Shown here piece by piece: positions 3 to 42,276 of a stretch of DNA of 42,276 nucleotides. Position 1 is the stretch's first letter. Each line of letters starts with the position of its first letter. Source of the stretch: an uncultured Deferribacteraceae bacterium (lineage in GTDB: Bacteria > Chrysiogenota > Deferribacteres > Deferribacterales > Mucispirillaceae). A model generated the notes under the pieces. The model had not been told where the DNA came from. It saw only the letters and a program-made list of their open reading frames with translations, and searched no databases. Position numbers and translations under genes: made by a program. Where the stretch lies: contig CAMRCY010000018.1 of the NCBI GenBank assembly GCA_947041165.1, positions 1-42,276 on the forward strand, given 5' to 3'.

Positions 3-1343
3 AATTTAACCGACAAAACCAAAGTAACTACATTGGCGTTATATTTGTATACAGACACATCACTTGATATATCCGAATTTACGAACCTTACGGAGCTTAC
101 GTTAATTAATCTAAGAGAATTAACAGGACTTGATCTATCTGCACTCACGAACCTTACGAACATTACGGTAAGTAGTCTAGCTAAATTAAATACACTTGAT
201 CTAGCTAAACAGACGAACCTTACGGAACTTACGGTAGGTTGGCTTGGTAGCGTATCAACACTTGATCTATCTAAACAGACGAACCTGACGGAGCTTACGT
301 TAAAAAGTATGCGTAATTTAACAACACTTACTCTACCAACTAATACACCGAACCTTACGAAACTTACGGTATATGATCTAGGTATAGCAACACTTGATCT
401 AACTAAACTCAAGAACCTTACGAAACTTGATGTACGTCGTCTACACCAGTTAAAAGCAACAACACTTGATCTATCTGCACTCAAGAACCTTACGTACCTT
501 TATGTAAATCATCTCGATATAGCAACACTTGGTCTATCTAAACTCACGAAACTTACGGAACTTCATGTAAATAATCTAGCCACATTAACAACACTTATTC
601 TACCAACTAATGCACCGAACCTTACGAGCCTTAATCTAGTTCATCTAGAGGTATTACAAACACTTGATCTATCTGCACTCACGAACATTACGTACCTTGA
701 TGTATGGAATCTAGATATAGCAACACTTGACCTATCTAAACTCACGAACATTACGAACCTCAATGTAAGTTATCTGGGTATACCAACACTTGATCTATCT
801 AAACTTACGAACCTGACGAAACTCTATGTAGGTGATCTAAGTGGATTAACAACACTTGATCTATCTGCACTCAAGAAACTTACAACACTTAATGTATATG
901 ATCTAGCCAAATTAACAACACTTACTCTACCAACAAATGCACCAAACCTTACGGGACTTGATGTACGTAATCTAGCTAAATTAACAACACTTGATCTATC
1001 TGCACAGACGAACCTTACGAAACTTCAGGTAGATAATCTAAATCAACTAACAACACTTACTCTACCAACCAAGACAAAGAACCTTACGAACCTTATTGTA
1101 AATGATCTAGGTATAGATGAGCTTGATCTATCTAAATTCACTGCGAGTTTAACAACTTTAGATTTAAATATTAACACTGCCCTTAATCAATTAAATCTAG
1201 GAACTAAACCATTTGCAAATAAATTAACCGTAACAGGATTTGGAAATTCAGCGTTGGACAGTATTAATAAAATCACTCACCCTACCAGTAAAATAGAGAT
1301 AACTTTAAAATCTCCAGATATTAATTATTCTCCTAAACCGTAA
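3..1343 (+). CDS. Leucine-rich-repeat protein, C-terminal part (5' end outside window)
   Basis: The frame is open to the left edge of the window: codons before the first possible internal start (TTG at 33) read NLTDKTKVTTL, a block also present in the N-terminal parts of the two following genes. The gene therefore starts upstream and this is only its C-terminal ~446 residues. Visible are about 18 repeats of 21-22 residues of the type LTxLxVxxLxx-LTTLDLSxLTN, with a variant half reading TLTLPTNAPN. A non-repetitive C-terminal cap follows (FANKLTVTGFGN... to INYSPKP) that matches the caps of the next two proteins. By analogy it should be a surface or periplasmic lipoprotein acting by protein binding; no ligand can be named. 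A hairpin terminator follows at 1365. Confidence 0.85.
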   Translation, partial: NLTDKTKVTTLALYLYTDTSLDISEFTNLTELTLINLRELTGLDLSALTNLTNITVSSLAKLNTLDLAKQTNLTELTVGWLGSVSTLDLSKQTNLTELTLKSMRNLTTLTLPTNTPNLTKLTVYDLGIATLDLTKLKNLTKLDVRRLHQLKATTLDLSALKNLTYLYVNHLDIATLGLSKLTKLTELHVNNLATLTTLILPTNAPNLTSLNLVHLEVLQTLDLSALTNITYLDVWNLDIATLDLSKLTNITNLNVSYLGIPTLDLSKLTNLTKLYVGDLSGLTTLDLSALKKLTTLNVYDLAKLTTLTLPTNAPNLTGLDVRNLAKLTTLDLSAQTNLTKLQVDNLNQLTTLTLPTKTKNLTNLIVNDLGIDELDLSKFTASLTTLDLNINTALNQLNLGTKPFANKLTVTGFGNSALDSINKITHPTSKIEITLKSPDINYSPKP

Positions 1344-1364
1344 TAATTTTTTAACCTATATACC

Positions 1365-1394
1365 GAACGCTCTGAAAATGGGCGTTCTTTTTTA
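1365..1394 (+). terminator. Rho-independent terminator after first LRR gene
   Basis: Inverted repeat GAACGC (1365-1370) / GCGTTC (1382-1387) followed directly by a run of T. The same stem recurs after the next two LRR genes. Confidence 0.75.
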
Positions 1395-1460
1395 TTTATT
1401 TTTCATGTAATTTTCATATATTTTTCCATCTATTTTTTATATATTTTTTTATACGATTAA

Positions 1461-1469
1461 TGATATAAT
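1461..1469 (+). promoter_or_regulatory. Extended -10 promoter of second LRR gene
   Basis: TGATATAAT is a perfect -10 (1464-1469) with the TGn extension. No good -35 is visible. The predicted start near 1476 gives a leader of about 85 nt to the ATG at 1561. The third LRR gene has the same 9-mer. Confidence 0.55.
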
Positions 1470-1560
1470 AAATATTACATTATATGAGTTATAATTTTAG
1501 TAGAGATCTGTTTGTTGCGAATACACATATTTTTACAACATTTAATTGGAGAATTATTTT

Positions 1561-4500
1561 ATGAAGTTTCATACGTTCAAATCATTTATATTACTAACTT
1601 TCACAGCGATTATTTTCACAGCGTGTGTTGATGAAAAAACACCACCTCCACCACCAAGCACTAATTGTGCAATAACAGAAACAGATATTAAATGCACAAA
1701 CACTTTAGTAGATGATGATATTGACTTTATTAATATTCATAAAGCAACTATCACATCACTTGATTTAACAGCGATACGAAATATGATAATACAGAAACAG
1801 TTAGATAAGATTACATCAACAGATTTCCCTCTGTTAGATAATCTATCTATCACTGGCAATTATAATCTCACAAGCTTAAACCTAGCAAAATTTCCTGCTC
1901 TTACAAAACTAAGTGCAATAGATGTAACTGGTATTACTGGGTTTAATGATATTAAAAACAAACTAACAACTATAGAGGCATCTAAGGAAAGTGGAATACT
2001 TCTTGCCGATATAATAGGTGTAACTGACAAAACCAAAGTAACAACATTGGGGTTGAGTGGCTATGAAGAGACATCACTTAATATATCTGAATTTACGAAC
2101 CTTACGAACCTTAATTTAGATTCTATGAACTTAATAACACTTGATATATCTAAACTCAAGAAACTTACAAAACTAAGTGAAGACGGTATAGAGAAGATTA
2201 CTGGGTTTGATGATATTAAAAACAATCTCACAACTATAGACATATCTAGTGGAAGTGGAATAAAACTTGCCGATATAATGGGTATAGCCGACAAAACCAA
2301 AGTAACTACATTGCAACTAATTGGTTATGAAGAGGTTACACTTGATCTATCTGGATTTACGAACCTTACGAGCCTTACATTATATCATATACCTATAACA
2401 ACACTTACTCTACCAACTGAGGCAAATAACCTTACGAACCTTGAGTTATATAATATATCTATAAGGACACTTGATCTGTCGGCACTCACGAACCTTAGGA
2501 AACTTAAGGTATGGAATCTAGATATAGCAACACTTGATCTTTCAGCACTCAAGAGACTTACGAACCTTAGGGTAGATTATCAAGATATAGCAACACTTAC
2601 TCTACCAACTGAGGGAAATAACCTTAAAACACTTATTGTAAAACAACTACCCAAATTAACCAAACTTGATCTGTCGGCACTCGCGAAACTTACGGAGCTT
2701 CATGTAGAGAGTATGACTGGCTTAACAGGACTTGATCTGTCTAAACTCAAGAGCCTTACGAAACTTGAGATAACGTATATGGGTAACTTAACAACACTTG
2801 ATCTATCTGCACTCAAGAACCTTACGAACCTTAGGGTACATGACCTAGGTATACAAACACTTGATATATCTGCACTCACGAACCTTGCGAAACTTACGGT
2901 ATGGAGTATCGATAAGTTGACAACACTTGATCTGTCGAAACTCACGAACCTTACGAAACTTGAGGTAGAGTATATGAGTAACTTACCAACACTTGATCTA
3001 TCTGCACAGACGAACCTTACAACACTTAATGTATATGATATAGCCAACTTAACAACACTTGATCTGTCGGCACTCACGAACCTTACGAAGCTTTATGCAA
3101 GTCGTCTACCCGTGTTAACCAAACTTGATCTGTCTAAACTCACAAACATTACGGAGCTTACTGCAAGTGATCTACCCGAGTTAACAACACTTGATCTACC
3201 AGCTAATGCAAAAAACCTTACGGATATTGATGTACATGATATACCCAAATTAATAACACTTGATCTACCAACTAATGCACCGAACCTTACGGAGCTTACG
3301 TTAATTAATCTAGGTAAATTAACAACACTGACTCTACCAACTAATGCACCGAACCTTACGAACCTTACGGTAGAGAATACGTATAGTTTAATAACACTTA
3401 CTCTACCAACTAATGCACCGAACCTTACGAACCTTAATATAGTTTATCTAGATCAATTAAAAACACTTGATCTACCAACTAATGCAAAAAACCTTACAAG
3501 ACTTAAGATATATAGTCTAGATCGATTAAAAACACTTGATCTATCTGGATTTACGAACCTTACGAGCCTTGAGGTAGATACTCTACCTATAAACGAGCTT
3601 AATCTATCTGCACTTACGAACCTTACGAACCTTAAGGTAACTAGCCTATCTCTAAGAACATTTGATCTATCGAAACTCACGAACCTTACGAACCTTAATA
3701 TATATAATCTAGATATACACACACTTAATTTATCTAAACTTACGAACCTTACGAAACTTAGTGTAAGTACTCTATTCATGTTAAGGACACTTGATCTTTC
3801 TGCGCTCACGAACCTTACGGAGCTTAATGTAGAGTATATCGGGGACTTAATAACACTTACTCTACCAACTAATACACCGAACCTTACGAACCTTAGGGTA
3901 TATAAGCTAGGTATACAAACACTTGATCTGTCGACACTCACGAACCTTACGGAGCTTAAGGTAGGGTATATGGGTAAGTTAACAACACTTGATCTGTCGG
4001 CACTCAAGAACCTTACGAACCTTATTGTAAAAGATATGACTGTACTAAATACACTTGATCTACCTGCACTCAAGAAACTTACGAACCTTGAGATAACTGA
4101 CTTATCTATACAAACACTTGATCTATCAAAACTCACGAACCTTACGGAGCTTATGGTATGGAATATGAATAAGTTAACAACACTTGATCTATCTGAACTC
4201 AAGAACCTTACGTTCCTTAATGTAAATGATCTACCCGAGTTAACAACACTTGATCTATCTGCACTCACGAACCTTACAACACTACTTAAGGTAAAGGTAA
4301 GTGATCTAAGAGGATTAACAACACTTACTCTACCAGCTGAGGCAAATAACCTTACGGAACTTGAGCTAAGTAGTATGACTGCACTAAATACACTTGATCT
4401 GTCTAAACTCACGAACCTTACGAGCCTTTATTTATATGAACTAAATAATTTATCAGCACTTACTCTACCAACTGAGGCAAAGAACCTTACGGAGCTTAGT

Positions 4501-4812
4501 GTAAATAATCTAAGTATAGATGAGCTTGATCTATCTAAATTCACGAACCTTACGAGCCTTCAGGTAGATAATCTAAATAAACTAACAACACTTGATATAT
4601 CTAAATTCACTGCGAGTTTAACAACTTTAGAATTAGATAGTAATGAGAAACTTACAACATTAAATTTAGGAGATAAATCATTTGTAAATAAATTAATAGT
4701 AAGAGGAAGTGGAAATACGGCGTTAGACAATATTAATAAAATCACTTTCAAGCAAGATAAAAACATAACGATAACTTTAAGAAATCCAAATATTAATTAT
4801 CCTGCACCTTAA
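1561..4812 (+). CDS. Giant leucine-rich-repeat lipoprotein (1083 aa)
   Basis: The ATG at 1561 is chosen because GGAGA (1548-1552) lies 8 nt before it; an in-frame TTG at 1546 would overlap that ribosome binding site. The protein starts with a lipoprotein signal: a short basic start, hydrophobic core LLTFTAIIFTA, and lipobox F19-T20-A21-C22. A proline-rich spacer follows, then a Cys-containing N-terminal region (TNCAI...IKCTN). Next come two copies of a block beginning GFNDIKN/GFDDIKN and ending DKTKVTTL, then roughly 40 LRR units of 21-22 residues. Each unit divides into two similar halves, LTxLxVxxLxx and LTTLDLSxLTN, and many units carry NLT. The C-terminal cap ends NPNINYPAP. It is probably anchored in the outer membrane as a binding or adhesion protein. 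The function is inferred from fold only. Long open frames on the opposite strand are by-products of the repeats. Confidence 0.9.
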   Translation: MKFHTFKSFILLTFTAIIFTACVDEKTPPPPPSTNCAITETDIKCTNTLVDDDIDFINIHKATITSLDLTAIRNMIIQKQLDKITSTDFPLLDNLSITGNYNLTSLNLAKFPALTKLSAIDVTGITGFNDIKNKLTTIEASKESGILLADIIGVTDKTKVTTLGLSGYEETSLNISEFTNLTNLNLDSMNLITLDISKLKKLTKLSEDGIEKITGFDDIKNNLTTIDISSGSGIKLADIMGIADKTKVTTLQLIGYEEVTLDLSGFTNLTSLTLYHIPITTLTLPTEANNLTNLELYNISIRTLDLSALTNLRKLKVWNLDIATLDLSALKRLTNLRVDYQDIATLTLPTEGNNLKTLIVKQLPKLTKLDLSALAKLTELHVESMTGLTGLDLSKLKSLTKLEITYMGNLTTLDLSALKNLTNLRVHDLGIQTLDISALTNLAKLTVWSIDKLTTLDLSKLTNLTKLEVEYMSNLPTLDLSAQTNLTTLNVYDIANLTTLDLSALTNLTKLYASRLPVLTKLDLSKLTNITELTASDLPELTTLDLPANAKNLTDIDVHDIPKLITLDLPTNAPNLTELTLINLGKLTTLTLPTNAPNLTNLTVENTYSLITLTLPTNAPNLTNLNIVYLDQLKTLDLPTNAKNLTRLKIYSLDRLKTLDLSGFTNLTSLEVDTLPINELNLSALTNLTNLKVTSLSLRTFDLSKLTNLTNLNIYNLDIHTLNLSKLTNLTKLSVSTLFMLRTLDLSALTNLTELNVEYIGDLITLTLPTNTPNLTNLRVYKLGIQTLDLSTLTNLTELKVGYMGKLTTLDLSALKNLTNLIVKDMTVLNTLDLPALKKLTNLEITDLSIQTLDLSKLTNLTELMVWNMNKLTTLDLSELKNLTFLNVNDLPELTTLDLSALTNLTTLLKVKVSDLRGLTTLTLPAEANNLTELELSSMTALNTLDLSKLTNLTSLYLYELNNLSALTLPTEAKNLTELSVNNLSIDELDLSKFTNLTSLQVDNLNKLTTLDISKFTASLTTLELDSNEKLTTLNLGDKSFVNKLIVRGSGNTALDNINKITFKQDKNITITLRNPNINYPAP

Positions 4813-4842
4813 TATTTTTTTTAAAAGATAGAGAATTATAAT

Positions 4843-4873
4843 GAACGCTGAATTTATCGGCGTTCTTTTTTTA
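4843..4873 (+). terminator. Rho-independent terminator after second LRR gene
   Basis: GAACGC (4843-4848) and GCGTTC (4860-4865) form the stem, followed by eight T. The sequence from the end of the coding region (4801) to here is essentially identical to 7080-7152 after the third LRR gene. Confidence 0.8.
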
Positions 4874-4961
4874 TAAAAATTTAAACATAATTAATCCAAT
4901 CTAGTTGCGAATAACTATTCTTTTTTACATAAACATATCTATATGTTTTTACTAATACTTA

Positions 4962-4970
4962 TGATATAAT
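4962..4970 (+). promoter_or_regulatory. Extended -10 promoter of third LRR gene
   Basis: TGATATAAT, identical to the 9-mer at 1461-1469. The predicted start near 4977 gives a leader of about 95 nt. No strong -35 is visible. Confidence 0.55.
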
Positions 4971-5072
4971 ATAGAGTATATCTGTGCTTGATAAAATACT
5001 TAAGTCTGTATATATTTATAGAAATACATTTACATCTATTTATATCACAACATTTAATCGGAGATTTATTTT

Positions 5073-7091
5073 ATGAAATTCAACACGTTCAAATCATTTA
5101 TGTTACTAACTTTCACAGCGATTATTTTCACAGCATGTGCTGATGAGAAAACTAGTGGAGGCGATACTCCACCACCCATAATACCAATCATATCAAGCAC
5201 GAATTGTACAATGACAGGCACAGACACTAAATGCACAAACATTTTAGTAGATGATGATATTGACTTTATTAATATTCATAAAGCAACTATCACATCACTT
5301 GATTTAACAGCGACACAAAATATGATAACACAGAAACAGTTAGATAATATCACATCAATACCTTTCCCTCTGTTAAATAATCTATCTATATCGAATAATA
5401 CGCAACTAACAAGCTTAAACCTAGTGGAATTTCCTGCTCTTACAAAACTAAGTGCAATGTTTGTAAGTAATATTACTGGGTTTAATGATATTAAAAACAA
5501 CCTCACAACTATAGAAGTATCTAAGGAAAGTGGAATACCTCTTGCCGATATAACTGGAATAAAGGACAAAACTAAAGTAACAAAATTAGAGTTGCATGAT
5601 TATATAGATACAACACTTGATATATCTGGATTTACAAACCTTACGAGCCTTAATGTACAAAATCTAGCAAAACTTGAAGCACTTGATCTATCTAAACTCA
5701 CGAAACTTACGAAACTTAATGTACAAAATCTAGCAAAACTTGAAGCACTTGATCTATCTGCACAGACGAACCTTACGTACCTTATGGTAACTTTGCTTAG
5801 TAGCGTACCAACACTTGAGCTAGCTAAACTCACGAACCTTACGTACCTTGAGATAGGTGATCTAAATCAATTAAATACACTTGATCTATCTAAACTCACG
5901 AACCTTACGAGCCTTAAGGTACAGGGTCTATATAAACTAACAACACTTGATCTATCTGCACTCACGAACCTTACGGAGCTTTATTTAAGTAGTCTTGGTA
6001 CATTAAGTACGCTTGAACTATCTAAACTCACGAACCTTACGGAGCTTAAGGTAGAGTATATGGGTAACTTAACAACACTTGATCTATCTAAACTCACGAA
6101 CCTTACGAAACTTAGTGTAAGTAGTCTAGGTATAACAACACTTGATCTATCTAAACTCACGAACCTTACGAACCTTAATATAGAGGGTCTAACTATAAGC
6201 GAGTTTGATCTAGCTAAACTCACGAACCTTACGAGCATTGCGGTAAATAGTCTAGCTGAAATAAAAACACTTAATTTATCTGCACAGACGAACCTTACGA
6301 AACTTAGTGTAAGTGGGCTTGATAAATTAGATACACTTGATCTATCTGCACAGACGAACCTTACGAGCCTTACGGTAGAGAGTCTACCTAAACCAGATAC
6401 ACTTGATCTATCTAAACTCACGAATCTTACGGAGCTTTATCTAGAGAATCTAATTTTACTAACAACACTTACTCTACCAACTGGGGCAACGAATCTTACG
6501 AGCCTTACGGTAAATGATCTAGGTCTATTAGCCAAACTTAATCTAGCTAAACTCACGAACCTTACAAAACTAAGTGCAATCGATACAACGAATATTACTG
6601 GGTTTAATGATATTAAAAACAACCTCACAACTATAGCGGTGTCACTTAAATCTGTAACAAACCTTGCCGATATAACTGGCATGGTGGACAAAACTAAAGT
6701 AACAGAATTAGAGTTGCGTAATTATAAAATTACAGCACTTGATATATCTGGATTTACGAACCTTACGAGCCTTACGGTAAATGCTCTAGAGGAACTAACC
6801 AAACTTGATCTATCTAAACTCACGAACCTTACGAACCTTACGGTAAGTAATCTAGCTGAAATAAAAACACTTGATCTATCTAAACTCACTGCTAGTTTAA
6901 CAACTTTAGGATTATATTCTAACACTGCCCTTGCAACATTAAATCTAGGAACTACATCATTTGTAAATAAATTAAAAGTGACAGGAGTGAGTAATACGAA
7001 GTTAACGGAAATTGGACAAATCACCTTCTTGAAAGATGAAAACATAAAGATCAGTTTTAGAAATCCACCACTTACTTATCCTGCACCTTAA
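5073..7091 (+). CDS. Leucine-rich-repeat lipoprotein (672 aa)
   Basis: ATG at 5073 with GGAG at 5060-5063. The last ~35 nt before the ATG closely match those of the second LRR gene. The signal peptide is almost the same (LLTFTAIIFTAC, lipidated Cys22), with a Pro/Ser-rich spacer and the same two-Cys N-terminal region (TNCTM...TKCTN). The GFNDIKN...DKTKVT block occurs twice: near residues 135-175 and again at about residues 509-550, after some 16 LRR units. A few more repeats and the shared cap (NPPLTYPAP) close the protein. The repeats have the same half-unit pattern as in the upstream paralogues. It is likely a cell-envelope binding protein sitting in the outer membrane. Duplication of a common ancestor is clear; the ligand is unknown. 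Confidence 0.9.
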   Translation: MKFNTFKSFMLLTFTAIIFTACADEKTSGGDTPPPIIPIISSTNCTMTGTDTKCTNILVDDDIDFINIHKATITSLDLTATQNMITQKQLDNITSIPFPLLNNLSISNNTQLTSLNLVEFPALTKLSAMFVSNITGFNDIKNNLTTIEVSKESGIPLADITGIKDKTKVTKLELHDYIDTTLDISGFTNLTSLNVQNLAKLEALDLSKLTKLTKLNVQNLAKLEALDLSAQTNLTYLMVTLLSSVPTLELAKLTNLTYLEIGDLNQLNTLDLSKLTNLTSLKVQGLYKLTTLDLSALTNLTELYLSSLGTLSTLELSKLTNLTELKVEYMGNLTTLDLSKLTNLTKLSVSSLGITTLDLSKLTNLTNLNIEGLTISEFDLAKLTNLTSIAVNSLAEIKTLNLSAQTNLTKLSVSGLDKLDTLDLSAQTNLTSLTVESLPKPDTLDLSKLTNLTELYLENLILLTTLTLPTGATNLTSLTVNDLGLLAKLNLAKLTNLTKLSAIDTTNITGFNDIKNNLTTIAVSLKSVTNLADITGMVDKTKVTELELRNYKITALDISGFTNLTSLTVNALEELTKLDLSKLTNLTNLTVSNLAEIKTLDLSKLTASLTTLGLYSNTALATLNLGTTSFVNKLKVTGVSNTKLTEIGQITFLKDENIKISFRNPPLTYPAP

Positions 7092-7121
7092 TATTTTTTT
7101 TAAAAGATAGAGAATTATAAT

Positions 7122-7152
7122 GAACGCTGAATTTATCGGCGTTCTTTTTTTA
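7122..7152 (+). terminator. Rho-independent terminator after third LRR gene
   Basis: Same GAACGC/GCGTTC stem (7122-7127 and 7139-7144) plus T-run as after the other two LRR genes. Confidence 0.8.
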
Positions 7153-7433
7153 TCTATAAAACTAGTCCTACAACTCCCTTATCGGCATTCTTTTTTTATC
7201 TATAAATAAACTTAATCTATCTCTCATATCATTCTTTTTTTTTACATAAAAATACATATAAAATTAATCCGATCGCTCCCTTATCCTTATCCTTCTACTT
7301 TTTCATTATTTTTTATCTATATATTTTGACTGATATTTAGCATATATTTGAGACTATATACGTCTACCTAAACCAATAGCAGAAGTAATTATGAACCGAT
7401 AATTAAAATATAAAACCGTAAAATAGCACAACA

Positions 7434-7464
7434 AAAAAAGGATAGATTTAACTCTATCCTTTTA
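7434..7464 (-). terminator. Terminator of trxA
   Basis: Read on the minus strand, AAAGGATAGA and TCTATCCTTT form a 10-bp stem with a 6-nt loop followed by a run of T, about 33 nt after the trxA stop codon. Confidence 0.85.
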
Positions 7465-7496
7465 TGTATAATCTACAAATTAGTTAAAACTAATTA

Positions 7497-7814
7497 TTAT
7501 AAATGTTTATTGATCGCATCAACGTAAGCTGTACGTGGTTGAACTGCTATAAACTGCTCAACAACTGCACCATCTTTAAACAGTAAAACAGTTGGTATAG
7601 TCATAATGTTGTACTCAGCAGCTAGCTCCTGATTATCATCAACATTAATCTTAACAACTTTAGCTTTGCCATCAAACTCTTTCTGTAACTCGTCTATAAC
7701 TGGAGTTAACATCTTGCATGGCATACACCAATCAGCCCAAAAATCTACTAAAACAGGTACTGATGATTTCAGTACTTCTGACTCAAAATTACTTGCGTTT
7801 ATCTCTAATGCCAT
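7497..7814 (-). CDS. trxA: Thioredoxin with WCMPC active site
   Basis: A 105-residue single-domain thioredoxin, the normal length. It is a cytoplasmic protein-disulfide reductase that passes electrons from thioredoxin reductase to targets such as ribonucleotide reductase. Visible features are the strand VLVDFWADW, the redox pair Cys30/Cys33 in WCMPC, and the cis-proline Pro74 in MTIPT. The usual motif is WCGPC; Met in the second position is a variant that can shift redox potential or partner choice. The usual C-terminal VGAxP is VQP here. The start is fixed by AGGAG (7822-7826) with 7-nt spacing. It is monocistronic, with its own promoter at 7868-7896 and terminator at 7434-7464. Confidence 0.93.
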   Translation of the reverse strand: MALEINASNFESEVLKSSVPVLVDFWADWCMPCKMLTPVIDELQKEFDGKAKVVKINVDDNQELAAEYNIMTIPTVLLFKDGAVVEQFIAVQPRTAYVDAINKHL

Positions 7815-7867
7815 ATCTAATCTCCTCTATCACTTTTTTTTAATTATTAATTAATTAATCAATTCGC

Positions 7868-7896
7868 ATTATCTATTCATTTCTGATAATTGTCAA
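7868..7896 (-). promoter_or_regulatory. Vegetative promoter of trxA
   Basis: On the minus strand: TTGACA (7891-7896), 17-nt spacer, GATAAT (7868-7873). The predicted start near 7861 leaves a leader of about 47 nt before the ATG. Confidence 0.75.
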
Positions 7897-7994
7897 TCAA
7901 AATTGATTAAGTATATTATTCTCTAAACTATAACTCTCATACAATTATAAACATATCTCAACTTATAATTAACACAACTCTAAATATATAGTAA

Positions 7995-8801
7995 CTAACT
8001 AATTATAAATATACAAGTCTTCTTATCTATACACGAAACACAAGTTTCTGAAAACGAATACTTGCACCCCATAGATATGCCAAGCCTTGATATCGCAAAA
8101 TCATACTTAGCTGGATCTCTCGGATTTAACTCTCTAAAATAACCGCTGATCTTATCAAGAGATACTTTAGGCGACGCACTACTCGATACTATGCCCATAT
8201 TAACTGCCGCTCGTTTTATATGAGTGTCAACGGGCATATACAACATGCTCGGTTGAAAAATTTTACCCTTCCATAAACCTAAATCAATCTCATCTTTGCG
8301 AATCATCCATCGCAAAAACATCATAAGTCGCTTTGATGCAGATTTGCCTGGTATCGGAAATAAAAAATTCACACCGTTCGTCATCTCTTTAAACTCATTA
8401 CGAATATCTGCTATAGAGAAACTTAAACAATCATCAATTCCTTTATCTGCATGACGCTCAAATATAGATCTAACCGATCCATATCTATCATATAACCTAT
8501 TTATCATAAGTGAGTAACTTGCAACATCTGCGACTGTCTGAAAACGATAGTAAAGAGTGTCATTACTAAAACTGTTCAGCTTGATCGGATCTGTTCCTGC
8601 ATAAGCAAAATAATTTGTTAAAAAATTCTTAATAGCTTTTACATTACCATATGCAAAAAGTGCAGATGTGAATGCTATAAACTCTGTGTTGCCATCAACT
8701 ACATGAGGGAAATGTATCGGATCAGTTTCTATAAAATCCTTAGAGTTATATCGCTTATAGATCTCTTCAAAATAATCTTTACGCTTATCTTCACTCATCA
8801 T
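7995..8801 (-). CDS. TIGR02757/DUF2400 protein with endonuclease III-like features
   Basis: A 268-residue protein that I recognise as the TIGR02757 (DUF2400) family, function not established. Two features recall the HhH-GPD DNA glycosylases. The first is VDTHIKRAA at 191-199, matching the EndoIII segment VDTHIFR that carries the catalytic aspartate. The second is four C-terminal cysteines at 246, 254, 257 and 263 (C-x7-C-x2-C-x5-C), close to the C-x6-C-x2-C-x5-C cluster of EndoIII. A short PGK-containing segment at 151-160 sits where the helix-hairpin-helix would be, but the EndoIII catalytic lysine is not clearly retained. The start codon overlaps the stop of the upstream radical SAM gene (TAATG), so the two are translationally coupled. 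A DNA-binding Fe-S role is inference. Confidence 0.8.
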   Translation of the reverse strand: MMSEDKRKDYFEEIYKRYNSKDFIETDPIHFPHVVDGNTEFIAFTSALFAYGNVKAIKNFLTNYFAYAGTDPIKLNSFSNDTLYYRFQTVADVASYSLMINRLYDRYGSVRSIFERHADKGIDDCLSFSIADIRNEFKEMTNGVNFLFPIPGKSASKRLMMFLRWMIRKDEIDLGLWKGKIFQPSMLYMPVDTHIKRAAVNMGIVSSSASPKVSLDKISGYFRELNPRDPAKYDFAISRLGISMGCKYSFSETCVSCIDKKTCIFIIS

Positions 8802-11272
8802 TAAGCTTCTTCCTTAAACTCTTCAATAATCTCTTCATTCAGCTCTTCAATATCTAGTCGATTAATTCCTATCTCACTACTTTTAAGTCCTGCCGATCTA
8901 AAAAATTTCAACATATTAAATGCACCCTGCGAAGTTACTTTCATCTCTAACACTTTATCAGAGTGAGATATAAGATATTCATCAATATACACTTTTTTAA
9001 GTCTTCCTTTTTTATCTTCAACTTCATAGAAATTTGTTCCACTATCAAGCAACTTAATAAATAGATCGTAGTTACTACTAGTTAGTTCTAATTTAATTTT
9101 CAATGAACTATTTAATTTCAAAGATTGTATCTTCTCAATGTTTTTAAGCTCGATACCTTCAACCATACTTTTATTAACAACTTTAACAAAATTATCAATA
9201 TCTGCGATCTCTGCCCTGATAAGTAATATTTCATTATCGCCAGAAACACCAACTTGTAACGGTTGAATTAATATTATTCTAGGCTGTGGATTAAACCCTT
9301 CTGTATAGGCAAGATTAACTTTACATATATCAAGCGAGTGATTAATTAATCGTACCGTATCAAGTGTTGATAAAAATTTCGCAGCCTTATCTTTCTTGTA
9401 CCTTATAAGATAATTGAAATAATCTTTATCATCTTTTTTAACATCAGTATCTTGAATATCATTTGCATCTAAATTATTTGCAGATAAAAAATCATCATCA
9501 ACTGGTTCAGCATTCGTAACTTTTATCTCTTTAAAATCACACACGCCACAACCAAAACATTTCTCACGTCTACAATCATCTATCATAGATTCATTTTTTG
9601 CAGCTTCAAATTCTTTCAACTTAAATTTTTTGGTAACACCAGTATCTATATTGTCCCACGGAAGAACATCATTTGCATCATAATTTTTCTCGGCTATATC
9701 TAACATATCAACACCTAATTCGTTAGCTGTTTCTGTCCACATATCGTAATTGAAAAACTCATGCCACGGATCTAAATATCCACCCTTCTCAACAATCTTC
9801 TCAAGCAGATTACCTATTGATAAATTTCCTCTTGATAGAAGAGCTTCAATCTTAGAAGTTTTAATATCATGATATTTAAGTTTAAATCTTGTTGGTGCAA
9901 TCTCTCTTTTTAGTAATTGTATTTTTCTATGAAACTCATCAATACTATTCTGTCCTAAAAACTCAAAAATTGTATGAGCTTTAGGAACAAAGTTTGATAC
10001 AGATATCGTAACATTAAATGATCGTTTATTTGCAGCATGATATATCTTTCTTGCAAGTTCAATAATATCTTTTATATCATCATCAGTTTCAAACGGTAGA
10101 CCTATCATAAAATATAATTTAACAGATGTAACACCACACTCTGATGCTAATTTAACAGAATCAAGTATCTGCTCTTCTGAAAGATTTTTATTAATAACCT
10201 TTCGCATTCTTTCAGATCCAGCTTCAGGTGCGATCGTGAATGATGAACGACGAACACCTGTGATCTCTTTAAACAACTCTTTACTCACAGAATCAGCTCT
10301 AAGTGAAGGCGTTGATAATGATGTGTGTTTAGAGTCTAAACCTCTATGTAGATTTTCGATAAGTGGCGTTATTTGAGAGTAATCACCTGTCGATAATGAT
10401 AGTAATGAAACCTCTTTATATCCAGAATTTGCAGCTTGATTTATAGCTTCTTTAGTGATATTTTCAACCGATCTCTCTCTAACAGGACGATATATCATCC
10501 CTGCTTGACAGAACCTACAACCTGCTGTGCAACCTCGTGCGATCTCAACAGTTATCCTATCTTGAACAGCTTCAAGCATAGTGATTAATGGTTTCTCTAC
10601 ACCCTTACTTTCTGCAAATGTTTTTGAAACATCTCTAAGCGGTCTTTTATCTGGATCTATTAACGGTATATAAAGGAATGGATATTTATCGTTAAGATAT
10701 ATTAAAATATCTTTTTTAGATTTTGATTGTGATTTTAAATCACCGATCTCTTCAACAATTTTTGTGATATGATCATCAGCTTCACCGATATAAAATACAT
10801 CCATAAACGTTGACATCGGTGCTGGATTAAATGTTGCACCACCACCTGCTATAACGATAGGTGAGCTATTATCACTCAATCTATCTTTTGATCGTAAACT
10901 TATATTTGAGTTTTTAAGGATAGCAAGAATTGTCGTGTAACTTAATTCATAAGGTATCGAAAAACCTAAAACATCAAAATCTTTCAAACTTTTAGAGTGT
11001 TCAATTGAACTAAAAATTTCACTCCCAAACATCTCTACTGCATCTATCCACGGTGCAAAAAATCTCTCACAAGATATTTTGTCCGACCTGTTTAAAATAT
11101 CATACAACAATCTGTAACCCATATGTGACGAACCGATCTCGTATATATCTGGGAATATTAAACAGAATGATATAAGCTCATTATGATTCTCTTTTTTAAT
11201 ACTATTTATCTCACTACCAACATATCTTCCTGGTTTTGAGATGTCTAACAACCTATTATTTATATCTAACAT
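8801..11272 (-). CDS. TIGR03960-type radical SAM protein fused to DUF2344
   Basis: 823 residues. The N-terminal part resembles a B12-binding-like domain (about 30-190). The radical SAM core follows with its cluster motif C248-x3-C252-x2-C255 and the later segments typical of TIGR03960 (TIAPEAGSERMR, FMIGLPFE). A second cysteine cluster (Cys567, 572, 575, 578) lies in a linker. From about 617 the protein is a TIGR03936/DUF2344 domain (LIRYKKDKAAKFLSTLD, YTEGFNPQPRI). The two parts are separate genes in some bacteria and fused in others. The substrate is not established; the family is often found near RNase E/G and ribosomal genes, suggesting RNA or translation-linked chemistry, which is inference. 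It lies 6 nt downstream of rodA and is coupled to the DUF2400 gene, so it is probably the tail of the rod operon. Confidence 0.88.
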   Translation of the reverse strand: MLDINNRLLDISKPGRYVGSEINSIKKENHNELISFCLIFPDIYEIGSSHMGYRLLYDILNRSDKISCERFFAPWIDAVEMFGSEIFSSIEHSKSLKDFDVLGFSIPYELSYTTILAILKNSNISLRSKDRLSDNSSPIVIAGGGATFNPAPMSTFMDVFYIGEADDHITKIVEEIGDLKSQSKSKKDILIYLNDKYPFLYIPLIDPDKRPLRDVSKTFAESKGVEKPLITMLEAVQDRITVEIARGCTAGCRFCQAGMIYRPVRERSVENITKEAINQAANSGYKEVSLLSLSTGDYSQITPLIENLHRGLDSKHTSLSTPSLRADSVSKELFKEITGVRRSSFTIAPEAGSERMRKVINKNLSEEQILDSVKLASECGVTSVKLYFMIGLPFETDDDIKDIIELARKIYHAANKRSFNVTISVSNFVPKAHTIFEFLGQNSIDEFHRKIQLLKREIAPTRFKLKYHDIKTSKIEALLSRGNLSIGNLLEKIVEKGGYLDPWHEFFNYDMWTETANELGVDMLDIAEKNYDANDVLPWDNIDTGVTKKFKLKEFEAAKNESMIDDCRREKCFGCGVCDFKEIKVTNAEPVDDDFLSANNLDANDIQDTDVKKDDKDYFNYLIRYKKDKAAKFLSTLDTVRLINHSLDICKVNLAYTEGFNPQPRIILIQPLQVGVSGDNEILLIRAEIADIDNFVKVVNKSMVEGIELKNIEKIQSLKLNSSLKIKLELTSSNYDLFIKLLDSGTNFYEVEDKKGRLKKVYIDEYLISHSDKVLEMKVTSQGAFNMLKFFRSAGLKSSEIGINRLDIEELNEEIIEEFKEEA

Positions 11273-20817: not shown

Positions 20818-21771
20818 ATATTAATTAAACGCATAATTTTCTTTGCACTTCTTACAATAATATTAACCACCATCTTTACGCTTATATTTATGGATACGAA
20901 CTCTCCCTTTATAAATATTGATAATGTTTCTAAAAATTTCAACCCTAAAAAGCCTGAAACGTATAATTTGATAGTAAAAAATGATAATTGGATCGTAAAA
21001 ACTGCGATAGATGACATCACAAATAAATGCGAAAATGATCTTGTGTGTGCGATATTTAATATACATGATTTTCTTCAAACCGATATATTATTAGATAATA
21101 AACTTAAAACAACCTACTCTCCTGAGAGAACTTTAAAGGCAAAAACCGCTAACAGTATTGATAAAAATATTCTAGCGTCAAACCTATTATCATCGCTAGG
21201 CGTTGAATCATATCTTCTATTTCTTAAAAGAAAAGATGAACCGATACCTGCGTTCTGTAATTTTGACACAGTGGACATATACTCAAGATTAAAGAAAAGA
21301 GCTCAAGAAAATCTTCTAGTAGAAAAAAGTGTAACTTTAAGGAATAATCAAACATGGGCTGTTGATAACGGTGAAAATGTAGAGTATAAAACAGTTGTTG
21401 CAAACATAAATGTTACTGCTACACAAAAAGTGGATATGAGGCTATTTCATAGTAGATACGAACTTGATCAATATGTAAATAATTTTAATGCAGTCTTTGC
21501 AACTGACTGTTACGCTGACTCGGCTACATCAATAAATAAAAACTGTGTTATCGCTAAAGGTGCTATACTCGCATTCTTCTCTAAAGGTGATAACAATATA
21601 TTCAACGCTAAAATTAGTAAGGCAGGAACATTATTAAGTGATGTTCATCCTGTACATATTAACAACAAAACATGTTTCGTGCTTGATGCATCTGTAACTA
21701 ATAACAATACCTACCCTGGATATCTTAAAATTATTGAGAAAAATGTTAAAAATATAGTTAAAATAGATTAA
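20818..21771 (+). CDS. Unknown membrane-anchored protein, probable ATA start
   Basis: The first ATG in this frame (20890) has no ribosome binding site, but the 24 codons before it encode a basic-plus-hydrophobic anchor (LIKRIIFFALLTIILTTIFTL). GAGGA at 20806-20810 lies 7 nt before an in-frame ATA at 20818, and no ATG, GTG or TTG occurs between the previous stop (20755) and 20890. I therefore place the start at 20818 (317 aa). The remaining ~290 residues are presumably periplasmic and contain five cysteines (KCENDLVC, FCNFD, TDCYA, KNCVI, KTCFV counted as sites), but show no domain I recognise. A segment LASNLLSSLGVESYLLFLKRKDEP resembles the core of transglutaminase-like folds, but no Cys-His-Asp triad can be assigned. 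It is convergent with radC. Confidence 0.7.
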   Translation: MLIKRIIFFALLTIILTTIFTLIFMDTNSPFINIDNVSKNFNPKKPETYNLIVKNDNWIVKTAIDDITNKCENDLVCAIFNIHDFLQTDILLDNKLKTTYSPERTLKAKTANSIDKNILASNLLSSLGVESYLLFLKRKDEPIPAFCNFDTVDIYSRLKKRAQENLLVEKSVTLRNNQTWAVDNGENVEYKTVVANINVTATQKVDMRLFHSRYELDQYVNNFNAVFATDCYADSATSINKNCVIAKGAILAFFSKGDNNIFNAKISKAGTLLSDVHPVHINNKTCFVLDASVTNNNTYPGYLKIIEKNVKNIVKID

Positions 21772-21908
21772 TATTCTCTCGCAAAAATAATAACATTAAA
21801 ACTTATTAATGCTTTTAATATTCTCTCGCAAAAACAATAACATTAAAACTTATTAATGCTTTTAATATTCTTTCGCAAAAACAATAACATTAAAACTTAT
21901 TAATACTT
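21768..21908. repeat. Three tandem 47-bp repeats between convergent genes
   Basis: Copies start at 21768, 21815 and 21862. Each holds CATTAA-AACTTA-TTAATG, a 6-bp inverted repeat with a 6-nt loop. The last copy contains the final codons and stop of the radC-family gene (21890), and the first touches the stop of the + strand gene (21771). The hairpins could act as weak bidirectional terminators. Confidence 0.85.
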
Positions 21909-22576
21909 TCGGTTGTTGACTGAAGAAATGAGTAATAACTTTCACTTGTTATAATAAGATGATCAACTAACTCTATTTCAACCGTACTTAAACCGTGTGC
22001 AATCCTCTCTGTTAACATCATATCTTCCTTTGATGGAGAAAGTGTACCTGATGGATGATTGTGAGCTATTATAACTTTTGACGCCTCTGCATTCATAGCG
22101 TTTTTAACAACCTCTCGCACAAATACCTGCACCTTATCTACCGTTCCTTTTGATAGAGTGTCGATATTTTTAACTCCAAATTTAAGATCTAAAGATATTA
22201 CAATAAACATCTCCTTATCCTCTAAGCCGATCTTCTTCTGTAAATATGAACATATCTTTTGTGGAGTATCAACAACCATCTTAGTAGCTGTGCTATGCTC
22301 AATCCTAATATTAAACTCGTGAATTAACTTAAAGAAAATCTCGGTTTCGCTACCTACACCTTCAATATGTTTCAAACTGTTACCAAATATATTCTTAAGC
22401 GGTGTAATATTACTTATCATATCCTTCGCCATAGGTTTTACATCTTTATATTTTATCACATAACAAAGCAGTAACTCTAAAATCTCATAATCTTGAAGCG
22501 ATTCTGCAGATTCTTGAAATCTCTTTTTAAGCCTTGATCTGTGTCCCAAATAATGCTTCTTCGTGTCAGAAGACAT
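21890..22576 (-). CDS. radC: RadC-family JAMM-domain protein
   Basis: 228 residues from the ATG at 22576, which has GAGGTG 6-7 nt upstream; an earlier in-frame ATG (22600) lies before that ribosome binding site. The N-terminal helical half resembles the helix-hairpin-helix-like part of RadC (GHRSRLKKRF, HIEGVGSETEIFFKL). The C-terminal JAMM/MPN+ domain keeps the metal site: Glu in VREVV, HNHPSG, and SPSKED with the terminal Asp. The cellular role of RadC is unsettled despite its old link to DNA repair. The extreme C-terminus lies within a 47-bp tandem repeat, so its last residues may have been rewritten by repeat expansion. Confidence 0.9.
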   Translation of the reverse strand: MSSDTKKHYLGHRSRLKKRFQESAESLQDYEILELLLCYVIKYKDVKPMAKDMISNITPLKNIFGNSLKHIEGVGSETEIFFKLIHEFNIRIEHSTATKMVVDTPQKICSYLQKKIGLEDKEMFIVISLDLKFGVKNIDTLSKGTVDKVQVFVREVVKNAMNAEASKVIIAHNHPSGTLSPSKEDMMLTERIAHGLSTVEIELVDHLIITSESYYSFLQSTTESINKF

Positions 22577-34893: not shown

Positions 34894-35272
34894 TTTTAAT
34901 CACTTGGTATGTGTGCTTGTGTTACTCACATAACTTGATATCTATTTTAATCACATGGTATCTGTGCTTGTGTTACTCACATAATTTTGATATCTATTTT
35001 AATCACTTGGCATGTGTGCTTGCGTTACTAACATAATTTTATATCTATTTTCATCACTTGGCATCTGTGCTTGTGTTACTCACATAACTTGATATCTATT
35101 TTAATCACTTGGCATGCGTGCTTGCGTTACTCACATAACTTGATATCTATTTTAATCACTTGGCATCTGTGCTTGCGTTACTCACATAACTTTGATATCT
35201 ATTTTCATCACTAGACATGTGTGCTTGCGTTATTCACATAACTTTGATATCTATTTTCACAACTTGATACAT
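34894..35272. repeat. Seven or more tandem 51-53-bp repeats
   Basis: Repeats of about 51-53 bp built on TTTTAATCACTTGGCATGTG, then TGCTTGCGTTACTCACATAA, then CTTGATATCTA. Seven copies plus a partial eighth show small substitutions (AAT/CAT, TGT/CTG, GCG/GTG). There are no unique spacers. The first copy's GGTATGTGTGC can pair with GCAAACATACC just upstream (34877-34887). Confidence 0.9.
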
Positions 35273-36513: not shown

Positions 36514-36990
36514 AGCGATAACAGTTAACTGTAAATCGTGATTAATAACCGTAATAGAAGCAAAACTAACAACATAAATTTTATTTACAACTCTATAACT
36601 GTAACTTATACCAAGTAATCAATACAAACTACATACCATAAATCTATCAACAGTAAATAATTATAATCAACAACGTGCGAATACAAAAACTACATACCAT
36701 AAATCTATCAACAGTAAATAGTTATAATCAACAACGTGCGAATACAAAAACTACATACCATAAATCTATCAACAGCAAATAATTATAATCACATAATAAT
36801 AATCGTAATAAAATAATCTATACGATCTGCTACAACAACTCTTGCAATCAATAATTGTATTTAGATAGTTATAAATTGGTATATTTAATAAATTATTCTA
36901 ACATTTAGATTTATTCTAGCTATGCTTGATAACGACATAGTTTTACATATTATAGTGGTTTTCGATATTTAAATTAAATGATTAGTTCGT
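36514..36990. other. Intergenic region with repeats
   Basis: The region contains a 12-bp palindrome ACAGTTAACTGT (36521-36532) and the 61-bp array. I see no gene. Confidence 0.65.
36624..36791. repeat. Three tandem 61-bp repeats
   Basis: The shared start CTACATACCATAAA falls at 36629, 36690 and 36751, spaced exactly 61 bp. Two junctions carry CAACAACGTGCGAATACAAA. The copies are nearly identical; the last is cut short. Confidence 0.88.
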
Positions 36991-37455: not shown

Positions 37456-37507
37456 TTTTTAATCCAATGATTTTTTTATATTGACAATTTCTTGCCATTT
37501 TTATACA

Positions 37508-37670
37508 AACTCATAACAATTATACTAACTCATAACAATTATACTAACTCATAACAATTATACTAACTCATAACAATTATACTAACTCATAACAATTATG
37601 CTAAGTTCACAACAACTATAAAAACTCGCAATAATTATGCTAACTCATAATAATTATGCTAAGTTCACAA
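37508..37670. repeat. 19-bp tandem repeats, partly degenerate
   Basis: AACTCATAACAATTATACT repeats with exact 19-bp period from 37508 (37508, 37527, 37546, 37565, 37584), then decays into variants containing TTATGCTAAGTTCACAA up to about 37670. It fills the gap between trmL and the IorB-like gene. Confidence 0.88.
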
Positions 37671-41871: not shown

Positions 41872-42276
41872 GAACATGCGATTATGCGAACAATGTGAAC
41901 GTGTGCGATAGTACAACAGTTTGAATATGTGCGATAGTTGCAATATGCGTGTGTGTGAATAGTTTAGGTATGTAATAGTTTGAACATGCGAACAATGTGA
42001 ACGTGTGCGATAGTACAACAGTTTGAATATGTGCGATAATTGCAACATGCGTGCGTGTGAATAGTTTAGGTATGCAACGTGTTTTGAACATGCGAACAAT
42101 ATGAACGTGTGCGATAGTCAACAGTTTGAATATGTGCGATAATTGCAACATGCGTGCGTGTGAATAGTTTAAGTACGCAACGTGTTTGAACATGCGAACA
42201 ATGTGAACGTGTGCGATAGTACAACAGTTTGAATATGTGCGATAATTGCAACATGCGTGCGTGTGAATAGTTTAAG
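41872..42276. repeat. 102-104-bp tandem repeats running off the window
   Basis: GCGAACAAT marks each unit at 41886, 41988, 42092 and 42194, spaced 102, 104 and 102 bp. Shared blocks are GAACGTGTGCGATAGT, CAGTTTGAATATGTGCGATA and CATGCGTGCGTGTGAATAG. The last copy is cut by the window end. The array is richer in G and CG than its surroundings and has G/C strand bias (G-rich on +). Confidence 0.92.

Follow-up and report, generated by a model that had tools for sequence, protein, structure and literature searches.

LRR genes at the start of the contig

The window, meaning the whole stretch of DNA analyzed here, is 42,276 nucleotides long, constitutes the entire contig C18, and has a G+C content of about 31%, close to the 31.1% of the 2.35-Mb M. 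schaedleri genome (PMC12887300). The host genus is probably an uncultured member of the Deferribacterota from the vertebrate gut, belonging to the Mucispirillum family (Mucispirillaceae). An earlier note, made from the letters alone, had described three adjacent leucine-rich repeat (LRR) genes at the beginning of the window, and all three open reading frames were found there. The features of the region are as follows.

3-1343, + strand: LRR gene 1, without a start and open at its 5' end; repeats at about 87-1214
1365-1393, + strand: intrinsic terminator after gene 1 (GAACGCT...GGGCGTTC followed by a T run)
1561-4812, + strand: LRR gene 2, a lipoprotein of 1083 amino acids with about 71 half-units recognized
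1561-1626, + strand: gene 2 signal peptide and lipobox (...IIFTAC), from the translation by eye
4843-4871, + strand: intrinsic terminator after gene 2, with the same stem as the gene 3 terminator
5073-7091, + strand: LRR gene 3, a lipoprotein of 672 amino acids with about 37 half-units recognized
5073-5138, + strand: gene 3 signal peptide and lipobox (...IIFTAC), from the translation by eye
5187-5627, + strand: gene 3 N-terminal cap with an invariant Cys-x8-Cys and degenerate helical LRRs, from alignment and AlphaFold model
5640-6593, + strand: gene 3 main repeat block (LTxLxVxxLxx / LTTLDLSxLTN), from segmentation and profile
7122-7150, + strand: intrinsic terminator after gene 3, from a scan for terminator-like sites
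5606-7496, no strand assigned: tract nearly identical to sister species G002 (contig C29), its upstream limit cut off by the end of the sister contig

The N terminus of gene 1 lies off the contig because the window starts at base 1 of C18. Gene 2 begins at ATG 1561, with a possible earlier start at TTG 1546. The signal-lipobox sequences of the two complete genes are MKFHTFKSFILLTFTAIIFTAC and MKFNTFKSFMLLTFTAIIFTAC, which bears out the lipoprotein signals that had been noted in two of the three genes; inspection by eye likewise found an n/h region followed by a lipobox Cys in the paralogues. After the IIFTAC signal, both proteins have a Pro-containing linker and then the same two-Cys cap, the cysteines of which are invariant in 7 of 7 aligned sequences. 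Gene 3 additionally encodes a helical island around residues 500-545. The leader common to the LRR genes ends ATTTAATyGGAGAwTTATTTTATG, and the region has 7 terminator-like sites against 2.7 expected.

Elsewhere the window contains tandem repeats that are not of the LRR type. These are apparently intergenic (21768-21909, 47 bp x 3; 34894-35257, 51 bp x 7; 36626-36791, 61 bp x 2.7; 37501-37670, 19 bp x 8.5; 41884-42274, 102 bp x 3.8), and the one at 41884-42274 reaches the contig end.

Repeat unit and fold

Segmentation of the three window genes and a paralogue on contig C22 gave 164 half-units. Among 71 paired halves, units of 22 residues prevailed (37/71), followed by units of 23 (17/71) and 21 (17/71) residues; by composition these were 11+11 (33), 11+12 (17, the LPTNAPN type), 10+11 (17), and 10+12 (4). 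The first half reads L-T-x-L-x-V-x-x-L-x-x and is variable at positions 3, 5, 7, 8, 10, and 11. The second half is a nearly invariant L-T-T-L-D-L-S-[K/A]-L-T-N or the 12-residue LTTLTLPTNAPN, and the consensus array of the unit is LTNLTVSNLAKLTTLDLSKLTN. Entropy was about 2.9-3.6 bits at first-half positions 3, 5, 7, and 8 and near 1 bit at most second-half positions. The LxxLDL pattern of the second half is evident: of 62 cases, 51 have Asp at position 5 and 55 have Leu at position 6.

The highest autocorrelation peak relative to shuffled sequences was at a lag of 22 residues (z = 13.0, 16.0, and 7.5 for genes 2, 3, and 1, respectively), and the second was at a lag of 11 (z = 7.6, 7.2, and 6.1). 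The anchoring used for segmentation itself imposes hydrophobic residues at positions 1, 4, and 6, and so the likeness of the two halves was retested with the hydrophobic positions masked and the remaining residues shuffled among themselves. The lag of 22 stayed strong in this test (z = 7.2, 7.8, and 11.1), and the lag of 11 was not significant (z = 1.5, 2.0, and -0.4), showing that the nested 11-residue period consists of a shared hydrophobic grid together with a frequent Thr at position 2. The halves are thus alike in their leucine grid (positions 1, 4, 6, and 9) and not in their polar residues. The unit of 21-22 residues in two similar halves proposed in the earlier note therefore stands as regards nesting and the symmetry of the hydrophobic skeleton; the symmetry does not extend to polar residues, and 22 rather than 21 residues is the prevailing length. 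The lack of polar similarity at lag 11 also ruled out that either half arose recently as a copy of its partner.

AlphaFold was run with 12 sequences of the family. The models of gene 3 (pLDDT 89.9, pTM 0.82) and gene 2 (pLDDT 87.8, pTM 0.61) are LRR solenoids with strands every 21-23 residues that form a parallel sheet. The LRR fold is further indicated by matches of the window proteins to Pfam LRR_4 and to the NCBIfam internalin J and A families. The best PDB match was internalin J (InlJ, 3bz5) both by sequence with phmmer (E = 4e-13) and by fold with Foldseek for gene 3 (E = 1e-11), and among the 50 PDB fold matches listed all were LRR proteins or complexes containing them. The models and the fold search ruled out a different solenoid such as a β-helix or pentapeptide repeat. 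As to whether both halves form parallel strands, a check proposed in the earlier note, the gene 3 model has a strand in 21 of 21 first halves, but stretches of at least three strand residues in just 2 of 16 second halves; in the gene 2 model some second halves form 3-residue strands. Each 22-residue unit would accordingly contribute its first half to a concave parallel β-sheet with variable aromatic and polar residues at the outward positions, and its second half, LTTLDLSxLTN, to a nearly invariant structural back.

Relationship to known LRR classes

At position 9, 70 of 85 first halves have Leu (57), Met (7), or Ile (6), 4 have Asn, and about 8 have Asn, Thr, or Ser, in agreement with the earlier suggestion that Leu takes the place of an asparagine ladder. 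Throughout the genus, hydrophobic residues prevail there in almost every member of the family. From LRR geometry, Leu 9 is expected to point into the core, and the inward-facing Leu at position 9 of each half would then form a hydrophobic ladder that replaces the asparagine ladder. Some Toll-like receptors (TLRs) lose the asparagine ladder in part, and so resemble the present proteins in being LRR solenoids that can be without some of it. However, TLRs have eukaryotic typical LRRs of ~24 residues with local ladder loss, whereas here the loss runs along the whole solenoid. The asparagine ladder of TLR ectodomains is the subject of PMC4877655. The FNIP/FGxxFN LRR (Crov588, PDB 6nyr; PMC9525666) is similar in having a residue other than Asn at position 9, with packed hydrophobic spines in place of the ladder there; its asparagine ladder, however, shifts to position 12, and it is unrelated in sequence class and taxon.

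The consensus of the published IRREKO class has Asn, Thr, or Ser at position 9, allows Leu at position 19, and tolerates units of 20 or 22 residues (PMC2946307, Matsushima et al. 2010). The family shares with IRREKO the LxxLxL first half, the LxxLDL second half, Leu 19 as a published variant, and the nested 10/11 periodicity, which is carried here (lag 11, z = 6.1-7.6) by the hydrophobic grid only. It differs in having Leu, Ile, or Met at position 9, a predominant unit of 11+11, and a second half that is mostly non-strand in the models; the IRREKO authors predict strands on both faces (PMC2946307). The IRREKO membership raised by the earlier note thus holds for periodicity and LxxLDL and fails at position 9. 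Because the defining Asn is absent we call the repeat IRREKO/InlJ-like rather than IRREKO and, judged by sequence, consider it a variant lying outside that class by the published consensus.

InlJ of Listeria monocytogenes (3bz5, NF033187) is the nearest protein of solved structure by sequence and fold; it has a similar nested repeat with an xLDVS/xLDLS second half, and its LRR domain likewise belongs to a surface protein. Nevertheless, InlJ has mostly 21-residue units, Asn at position 9, Cys at position 6, an LPXTG anchor, and MucBP domains, whereas the proteins described here have mostly 22-residue units, Leu at position 9, Val or Leu at position 6, and a lipoprotein anchor. No LPXTG was present in the translations of the window LRR genes, and no domain other than LRR families was found with Pfam. 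The comparison with internalin models that had been suggested did yield internalin J and A matches, with NF033187 scoring 99 bits against a curated cut-off of 1700 bits, and the proteins are not class 1 internalins by either measure. InlJ binds MUC2, a mucin, and has been linked to adhesion (PMC7291126). Any mucin parallel would draw on fold class rather than on a homologous binding face.

Distribution, exchange, and probable role

A query with the N-terminal cap matched 4 of 100 genomes, these being all four of the genus, and none of the 96 others. The family was not found outside the genus among the 290-385 genomes sampled. Outside the genus, the matches to a repeat query that were examined proved to be LRRs, in most cases SDS22-like; they had Asn (in one case Thr) at position 9 and no Leu-ladder array, and were rejected as relatives. 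Spread by phage or plasmid was also rejected, protein searches having returned weak LRR matches only (one Mollicutes plasmid with Asn at position 9 and two phage-labelled Listeria records). The termite-gut Deferribacterota paper (2026, PMC12887300) does not mention leucine, LRR, surface protein, or lipoprotein.

The locus is syntenic between species. One contig of sister species G003 carries two LRR genes and a truncated LRR open reading frame, bounded by genes that we take to be those of a nitroreductase on one side and, on the other, of thioredoxin, a TIGR02757-like protein, and a TIGR03960-like protein, and the gene order in the window flank is the same. Contig C22 carries the nitroreductase gene, one LRR gene, and a terminator, and it breaks off 23 codons into a further LRR gene. 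This contig end and the gene order make it most likely that C22 and C18 adjoin and that the array comprises at least four LRR copies here. The C22 gene and gene 1 are nearly identical at their ends where both are present but contain unequal numbers of repeats in the middle, a pattern that by sequence points to expansion or contraction of the repeat block. A further LRR gene lies on contig C34 of G000; the survey of paralogues called for by the earlier note thus had a positive outcome.

On C34 (L017:2-976, 3593-4351, 4664-8998) this LRR gene lies among open reading frames with repeated GGLVG (GLUG-like) motifs and a lipoprotein of over 1445 amino acids in which a domain of about 110 residues is repeated at least eight times, a second repeat-rich region of putative surface proteins. 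In G003 two LRR paralogues (L055:7249-8484 and 8727-10952) have a common in-frame deletion of the signal peptide and lipobox (MKFNTSKSLSS..NC), and so either some copies can do without export or these two are in decay. The third, truncated frame is at L055:11287-11850, and a broken copy with several stop codons lies away from the array (G003:C20:27828-28468, L053).

Gene 3 is unusually similar to its counterpart in G002, the contig of which ends inside the gene and so hides the upstream limit of the shared tract. Over amino acids 179-672 dN was 0.047 and dS 0.032, a dN/dS of about 1.5 from few changes, against a dS of 0.42-0.46 for five flanking genes on the same G002 contig. Third positions were identical at 480 of 496 sites in the LRR gene and at 209 of 269 (78%) in the TIGR02757-like gene (Fisher p = 2e-16). 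The spacer at 7092-7496 was 98.3% identical (398/405) and the next spacer 71% (123/173), the identity dropping abruptly at the thioredoxin gene. Codon constraint alone is insufficient to explain a dS of 0.03, as the G003 and G001 copies differ from gene 3 with a dS of 0.29-0.39. A mis-binned contig was ruled out as the source of the 98% tract because the tract shares a single G002 contig with 7 kb of flanking sequence at the ordinary 90% identity. Gene 3 has apparently undergone recent recombination between the two species, the remaining doubt being a chimeric assembly at the repeats. At 6206-6405 identity with G002 is 89% inside an otherwise 94-100% identical tract, and this block suggests a mosaic within gene 3.

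Aromatic residues occupy 49 of 340 exposed first-half (concave) positions against 2 of 474 exposed second-half positions. Changes relative to G002 showed no significant excess at exposed first-half (15/144) over second-half (7/114) positions (p = 0.27), and the variable positions of gene 3 could drift neutrally. The concave aromatics together with the lipid anchor, the lineage restriction, the copy-number change, and the exchange make it most likely that these lipoproteins act at the surface as ligand binders or adhesins, through a concave face that varies and bears aromatics. Our preferred explanation, which we hold to be somewhat better than an even chance, is that these are cell-envelope LRR lipoproteins with a Leu-ladder solenoid, encoded in a recombining array. 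Specifically, an N-terminal lipid would hold the Cys-capped solenoid to the membrane. At one conserved site, separately terminated copies would gain or lose repeats, duplicate, and be exchanged between species by homologous recombination, and the products would likely bind a ligand that changes, whether on the gut host, in its mucus, or on neighboring cells.

A distinctly less probable explanation is an array for antigenic variation or phage decoy, in which the changing surface matters rather than one ligand and the tandem copies serve as recombination donors and recipients. The several copies at one site, the paralogues with nearly identical ends and different repeat numbers, the recent inter-species tract, and a dN at or above dS are all consistent with it. 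However, leaders and terminators are individual to the copies, so that the locus shows no sign of one expression site served by silent donors. It is improbable, more so than an antigenic or decoy array, that these lipoproteins face the periplasm in a structural or scaffold role and have no extracellular partner. The Deferribacterota have two membranes and a lipobox alone is silent on the membrane face, so the proteins may face the periplasm; yet restriction to one lineage, exchange between species, and a concave face that is variable and bears aromatics are features seen more typically in exposed proteins. Largely neutral repeat expansion by unequal crossing-over in leucine-rich sequence, giving long proteins of little function, is very improbable: it would fit the closeness of dN to dS and the truncated, signal-less, or broken G003 copies, but long open frames are kept in all four genomes, the Cys cap, C-terminal cap, and hydrophobic grid are conserved, and the fold is confident.

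With surface-binding lipoproteins as the preferred reading, we put forward tentatively, as a possibility well short of even, that the family constitutes a new LRR subclass. Its 11+11 unit would be homogeneous, its asparagine ladder would be replaced by a double ladder of leucines running without a break, and within the one gut Deferribacterota genus to which it is confined it would serve as a fast-changing surface-binding repertoire traded between species. An LRR solenoid with a leucine ladder over its full length, as suggested here, would offer a clean test of the importance of the asparagine ladder. For the uncultured gut Deferribacterota, the array provides candidate attachment proteins in which the exchange of genes among related species leaves a signal that can be measured.
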